Source: Labilithrix luteola
GTDB taxonomy: Bacteria > Myxococcota_A > Polyangia > Polyangiales > Polyangiaceae
Assembly (NCBI GenBank): GCA_026225435.1
Contig: JAMFST010000639.1
Coordinates: 1 to 12,027, forward strand
Length of the DNA stretch: 12,027 nt
Direction: 5' to 3'
Part shown: positions 11,072-12,027 of the stretch, one piece after another
Layout of the letters: each line of letters starts with the position of its first letter
How positions within the stretch are numbered: the first letter of the stretch is position 1
The notes under the pieces: model-generated
What the model was told of the DNA's origin: nothing
Databases searched by the model: none
What the model saw: the letters and a program-made list of their open reading frames with translations, nothing else
Program-made: the position numbers and the translations under genes

Positions 11072-12027
11072 GTGATCTTCGACTGGCTCAACGGCCTGTT
11101 CTCGAACGATCTGGCGATCGATCTGGGCACCGCCAACACGCTCATCTACGTGAAGGGCAAGGGCATCGTCTCCTGCGAGCCGTCCGTCGTGGCGGTGCAG
11201 AAGGACGCCCGTGGCGGCAACAAGGTCCTGGCGGTCGGCCGCGAGGCCAAGGAGATGCTCGGTCGCACCCCGGGCAACATCCGCGCGGTTCGCCCGCTTC
11301 GCGACGGTGTCATCGCCGACTTCGAAATTACCGAAGCGATGCTCCGTTACTTCATCGCGCGCGCGCACAACCGCCGCACGCTGGTGAAGCCGCGCATCAT
11401 CATCTGCGTCCCCTTCGGCATCACCGAGGTCGAAAAGCGCGCGGTCAAGGAGTCGGCCGAGAGCGCCGGCGCCCGCGAGGTCTACCTGATCGAGGAGCCC
11501 ATGGCCGCGGCCATCGGCGCCGGACTCCCCATCACCGAGCCGTCCGGCAACATGGTCGTCGACATCGGCGGTGGCACCACCGAGGTCGCCGTCATCTCGC
11601 TGGCCGGCATCGTCTACTCGCAGAGCGTGCGCGTCGGCGGCGACAAGATGGACGAGGCCATCCAGGCCTACCTCAAGCGCAAGTACAACCTGGCCATCGG
11701 CGAGCAGACCGCCGAGCGCATCAAGATGGAAGTCGGCAACGCGTATCCGCTCGAGCAGCAGCGGACATGCGAGGTCAAAGGCCGCGACCTCGTCGCCGGC
11801 ATCCCGAAGACCGTCATCGTCAACTCGGACGAAATTCGCGAAGCGCTGGCCGAGCCCACGAACGCGATCGTCGAAGCGGTGCTACTCGCCCTCGAGAAGA
11901 CCCCGCCGGAGCTCGCGGCCGACATCGTCGACAAGGGCATCGTCTCCTGCGAGCCGTCCGTCGTGGCGGTGCAGAAGGACGCCCGTGGCGGCAACAAGGT
12001 CCTGGCGGTCGGCCGCGAGGCCAAGGA
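11072..12027 (+). CDS. mreB: Rod-shape-determining protein MreB, 3' partial, C-terminus rearranged
   Basis: MreB is the bacterial actin that polymerises on the inner membrane and guides cell-wall elongation. The GTG start has GGAGAG 8 nt upstream. The first 318 codons lie in the window. Phosphate-1 motif DLGTANT is at 17-23, then [30 protein letters not shown], and phosphate-2 motif [11 protein letters not shown] at 164-174. The protein is normal up to [15 protein letters not shown] (about residue 291). There the family expects an LTGGGALL adenosine-binding motif, but the frame instead re-enters the N-terminal sequence [16 protein letters not shown]. Residues 288-318 therefore repeat residues 30-60. 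As written the protein lacks part of its nucleotide pocket. mreC and mreD would normally follow but lie outside the window. Confidence 0.9.
11158..11253 (+). repeat. 96-nt direct repeat, first copy (mreB 5' region)
   Basis: This is the normal location of this sequence, within the subdomain IA coding part of mreB. It is identical over 96 bases to 11932-12027, with an offset of 774 nt (258 codons), so frame is kept. Confidence 0.95.
11932..12027 (+). repeat. 96-nt direct repeat, second copy at the window edge
   Basis: This is an exact copy of 11158-11253 sitting where the mreB 3' region should be. The match begins at CAAGGGCATCGT, a sequence that also fits the authentic MreB 'DKGIV' codons, so the join lies in a short shared homology. 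The copy may continue beyond the window. Confidence 0.95.

Follow-up and report, generated by a model that had tools for sequence, protein, structure and literature searches.

An in-frame N-terminal repeat at the end of a Labilithrix mreB contig, very probably an assembly artefact

The window analyzed here, 12,027 nt long and coextensive with contig C1383, closes on an mreB gene that reverts to its own N-terminal coding sequence where the C-terminal segment of the protein should follow. We interpret this tail as an artefact of assembly at a contig end within mreB, a reading that we hold with high confidence, and not as a novel type of gene. An earlier, sequence-only reading had put a mis-join at a contig end first among its explanations, and had also advised checking whether the window edge is a contig end, as it proves to be. 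Its choice is further supported by a 13-nt microhomology at the switch point that is also present in the Labilithrix contig L032, by the location of mreC on another contig after a gap, and by the count of fold-backs in relatives, which is zero.

Direct base comparison confirmed that bases 11932–12027 are identical to bases 11158–11253 at 96 of 96 positions, with the offset of 774 nt that had been claimed, and that the second copy reaches the final base of the contig (12027). Because the repeat ends at the contig end, the sequence past it is not visible. On its 5′ side the boundary is sharp: base 11931 differs from base 11157, and the identity upstream of the repeat is that of the background. 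An exact match of 96 nt at 71% G+C is far beyond chance, and a chance repeat is ruled out by this identity; no other direct repeat of at least 24 nt (seed 16) was found by a direct-repeat search of the 12,027-nt window. The repeat is also in frame, as had been stated, since 774 equals 3 × 258 and the motif KGIV is encoded at both sites, as residues 30–33 and again as residues 288–291. The features discussed here are collected in Table 1. Neither Rfam matches at gathering scores nor tRNAs were found in the window.

Table 1. Coordinates of the mreB repeat, the break and other genes in the window
Feature	Position	Strand	Basis
Serine/threonine protein kinase gene	2526-3980	-	Pfam Pkinase, 3.4e-44
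Two-RRM protein gene, 319 aa, Gly/Pro-rich linker and Gly-rich tail	9478-10437	+	Pfam RRM_1, two stretches; NCBIfam Rbp_regulator domain, two stretches
Ribosomal protein L33 gene, 53 aa, between the RRM gene and mreB	10608-10769	+	NCBIfam TIGR01023, 2.4e-19
mreB from its GTG start to the break (trustworthy, truncated), residues 1-291	11072-11944	+	Pfam MreB_Mbl; 88% DNA identity to L032
Original 96-nt copy, encoding MreB residues 29-61	11158-11253	+	Repeat search; aligns in place with relatives
13-nt microhomology CAAGGGCATCGTC, point of the sequence switch, native at both places	11932-11944	+	L032 has these 13 nt at both corresponding sites, likewise 774 nt apart
Foreign tail, a second copy of mreB N-terminal sequence replacing the LTGGG segment; probable mis-join	11945-12027	+	Identity to L032 in register falls from 24/24 to 6/24 at 11945

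Judged by comparison with protein families and related DNA, MreB is normal as far as DKGIV (residue 291, base 11944). The frame opening at GTG 11072 matches the Pfam MreB_Mbl profile (PF06723) with an E-value of 1.2e-134 over profile positions 2–278 of 327, the last 49 positions being absent at the break. Contig L032, from a Labilithrix metagenome-assembled genome (MAG), aligns to 11073–11944 and no further; the alignments of L033 and L035 end at 11944 also, and that of L034 at 11943. The alignment to mreB of relatives that the sequence-only reading had proposed therefore places the end of the match at 11943–11944 in all four contigs. Compared in register with L032, the sequence is identical at 24 of 24 bases over 11921–11944 and at 6 of 24 over 11945–11968. 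Together, the alignment ends and this drop in identity indicate that residues 1–291 are trustworthy and that the next 27 residues are not the MreB C-terminus, with residue 292 (base 11945) as the first certainly foreign codon. The earlier caution that the mreB annotation should not be trusted at this edge is upheld: the annotation appears sound only to 11944, which should be regarded as the last trustworthy mreB base, and the predicted MreB should be treated as a truncated protein that stops at residue 291.

The switch takes place inside a run of bases common to both sites, as had been proposed; the length given for it, about 12 bases, needs correction to 13 nt (11932–11944) if the organism matches L032 there. 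In L032, where mreB is intact (a 344-aa frame), CAAGGGCATCGTC is present at both corresponding sites, likewise 774 nt apart. KGIV is written with the same codons at its two occurrences, the second of which belongs to VDKGIV and is followed by LTGGG in relatives. Given these identical codons, any exchange there is in frame, and the in-frame state, being forced in this way, does not independently point to a functional gene or to selection. We measured the length of the shared run in the 39 of 80 mreB loci where the pattern recognised both motifs; the longest run common to both sites was 13 nt in three of them, 12 nt in one, 11 nt in one and at most 10 nt in the remaining 34.

The same microhomology might seed a real event as well as a false join, and an actual tandem duplication within mreB, 774 bp or 258 codons long and in frame, arising there through recombination or slippage and subsequently collapsed by the assembler, would likewise end in an exact overlap and look alike. 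Such a gene would encode an MreB of about 600 aa in which a second N-terminal half replaces the C-terminal segment of the first copy, an unusual natural MreB if true. The exact in-frame repeat speaks for this explanation; beyond the repeat itself, however, nothing does, and the reading frame, dictated by the KGIV codons, is no evidence of selection. Moreover, this gene shows strong conservation here, and its product would be a truncated actin-like fold with another N-terminal half appended. We regard a real duplication as very unlikely, also in view of what relatives carry at this position.

MreB was searched for in 59 genomes, the source genome included, at a threshold of E 1e-30, at which short stray copies are not listed, and it was found in all 59. 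In 56 of the 58 relatives a single MreB match was obtained, ending at query residue 292–296, in open frames of 322–437 aa, so that none of these relatives with an uncut mreB has a doubled MreB, which argues against a duplication. The mreB gene is cut by contig ends in the other two, G009 (contigs C130 and C65) and G023 (C321), with no fold-back among the matches listed; counting these two, a fold-back in mreB was seen in 0 of the 58 relatives. A protein comparison scored 8,000 candidates, of which 7,947 passed and the best 120 were listed; it also returned no fold-back and no doubled MreB among those 120, although the candidates spanned 175–556 aa and a protein of about 600 aa could not appear among them. 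The LTGGG-type motif that the sequence-only reading had expected is indeed what relatives carry: at the place where C1383 jumps, the DKG motif is followed by [TAS]GG in 119 of the 120 listed proteins and by TDG in one, and a strict DNA pattern recovered an LTGGG-type motif in 22 of 34 loci, the other 12 being missed by the pattern. Across 99 loci we obtained 98 MreB-like stop-to-stop frames, of which 89 matched the C-terminal motif pattern and nine, of ordinary length (348–362 aa), did not.

A few candidates for a similar structure in relatives were considered and set aside. Locus L110 has the N-terminal pattern twice within a normal 348-aa frame, which we took as chance. Four frames longer than 500 aa (L041, 540; L042, 618; L047, 1,676; L086, 1,052) contain the N-terminal motif once each, and we took them to be long open frames. 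Query residues 1–318 were matched in many relatives; this was rejected as a sign of fold-back because the DNA alignment of L032–L035 puts the tail on the N-terminal site. Among the relatives compared, with a protein listing that stops at 556 aa, we see no hint of a lineage whose MreB is doubled.

The genome is a fragmented one, with 6.8 Mb in 1,502 contigs, 80.5% completeness and 2.8% contamination. We sampled 140 of the 1,502 contigs, of which 84 were readable (at least 3,001 nt) and 56 (1,548–2,950 nt) read as N, and tested 167 ends, leaving out the cut end of C750, for recurrence of the last 20 nt within the sample. Recurrence was found at one end, namely the repeat end of C1383, which points to an isolated event and not to a habit of the assembly. 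No second end overlap that would give the word size of the assembly graph was present among the 167 ends, and a DNA search of the source genome (40 of 954–1,279 candidates scored in each case) found no end overlap of the window, of contig C813 or of C750 (first 20,000 of 20,234 nt). Repeated 31-mers did occur in two other contigs of the first 62 readable, inverted in L169 and direct in L197. We rejected both as joins: these are long, diverged repeats, 72–87% and 76–81% alike, respectively, and look like real paralogues.

The sequence expected beyond the break was sought in the same genome. The only MreC match found in its readable part lies at the very start of C813 (positions 39–410, profile from position 26). 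Position 1 of C813 (L172) aligns to L032 5500, and the break on C1383 corresponds to L032 4873; about 626 nt would thus be missing between the two contigs if the spacing is as in L032. After this gap, C813 begins inside mreC and is collinear with L032. It continues with a frame without a Pfam match at the place expected for mreD, named mreD-like by position alone, and with Transpeptidase/PBP_dimer, FTSW_RODA_SPOVE and BacA/UppP-family proteins, the first two of which we take to be PBP2-like and RodA-like and the third a protein of the BacA/UppP family. The operon looks ordinary, with the link between mreB and mreC drawn here through the L032 map. Within positions 1–60 of C813, mreC shows an apparent frame change, from RLVLDRGSRDVR in frame 1 to MPVISPDGVVGS in frame 3, which may be a further hint that sequence quality is poor at the contig ends flanking the gap. 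A search for the MreB C-terminus on another contig of the source genome gave no match (18 of 18 candidates scored; contigs below about 3,000 nt are unreadable, as N). The missing piece could sit in one of the short contigs that read as N or outside the bin, and at 0.6 kb it could fall under the size limit of the bin, in which the smallest contig seen was 1,548 nt.

The assembled sequence tracks the true gene up to the second KGIV site and then carries on as if from the first, and the contig ends 96 nt downstream of where the shared run begins. A match of 13 nt is shorter than the smallest k that is usually employed. Since it is too short for a k-mer collapse, the bridge would have been supplied either by one or a few chimeric reads, as from template switching in library amplification, or by a false join made at CAAGGGCATCGTC in a gap-closing or local-assembly step. 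The assembler would in this way have been led back into already used sequence beside a break in coverage and would have stopped there. The length of 96 nt may be the k−1 overlap of a graph with k = 97, a correspondence that is suggestive only, or may simply reflect how far a chimeric read extended. The true mreB would continue into the roughly 626 nt now missing and from there into C813, with the rest of mreC, the PBP2-like transpeptidase and the RodA/FtsW-family gene.

Exactly such a junction would also be produced by a circle or a tandem array of the 774-bp unit, and hence by a rearrangement carried by a minority of the sampled population, whether an amplification or an excised 774-bp circle, present beside the normal gene. 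Against this, Pfam assigned none of the eight frames of the window to a mobile or recombination family (one frame had no match of any kind), and nothing similar was encountered in relatives; we give such a rearrangement only the slightest chance, below even that of a real duplication.

The remainder of the window holds several other genes (Table 1). Parts of the gene for the two-RRM protein, a layout less common in bacteria, align to L032 by DNA, and the DNA of the L33 gene is conserved in both L032 and L033. Most of the window's 49 other listed DNA matches within its own genome fall in the kinase gene, which indicates that this gene has many paralogues.

The artefact, as we read it, matters for quality control only: the last 83 bases of the contig (11945–12027) should be trimmed. 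It also illustrates how in-frame repeats can mislead, since a codon motif that occurs twice ensures the frame by itself.

Set beside the MreB family (PF06723), the protein is ordinary over residues 1–291, where it is 94–97% identical to the nearest relatives found; these include Labilithrix, Sorangium and Polyangiaceae records, and the identity holds to about residue 292. Past residue 291, by contrast, C1383 has its own N-terminal sequence again in place of the C-terminus. The closest parallel to the tail is offered by the overlaps and local assembly errors known from metagenome contig ends. In the sections of Chen et al. 2020 (PMC7111523) that deal with scaffold ends, perfect overlaps are described as often n (IDBA-UD) or n−1 (metaSPAdes) long, where n is the largest k-mer, and duplicate sequence at gaps in IDBA-UD and CLC assemblies is removed. 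The overlaps described in those sections join two scaffolds or flank a gap, whereas the end of C1383 overlaps its own interior.
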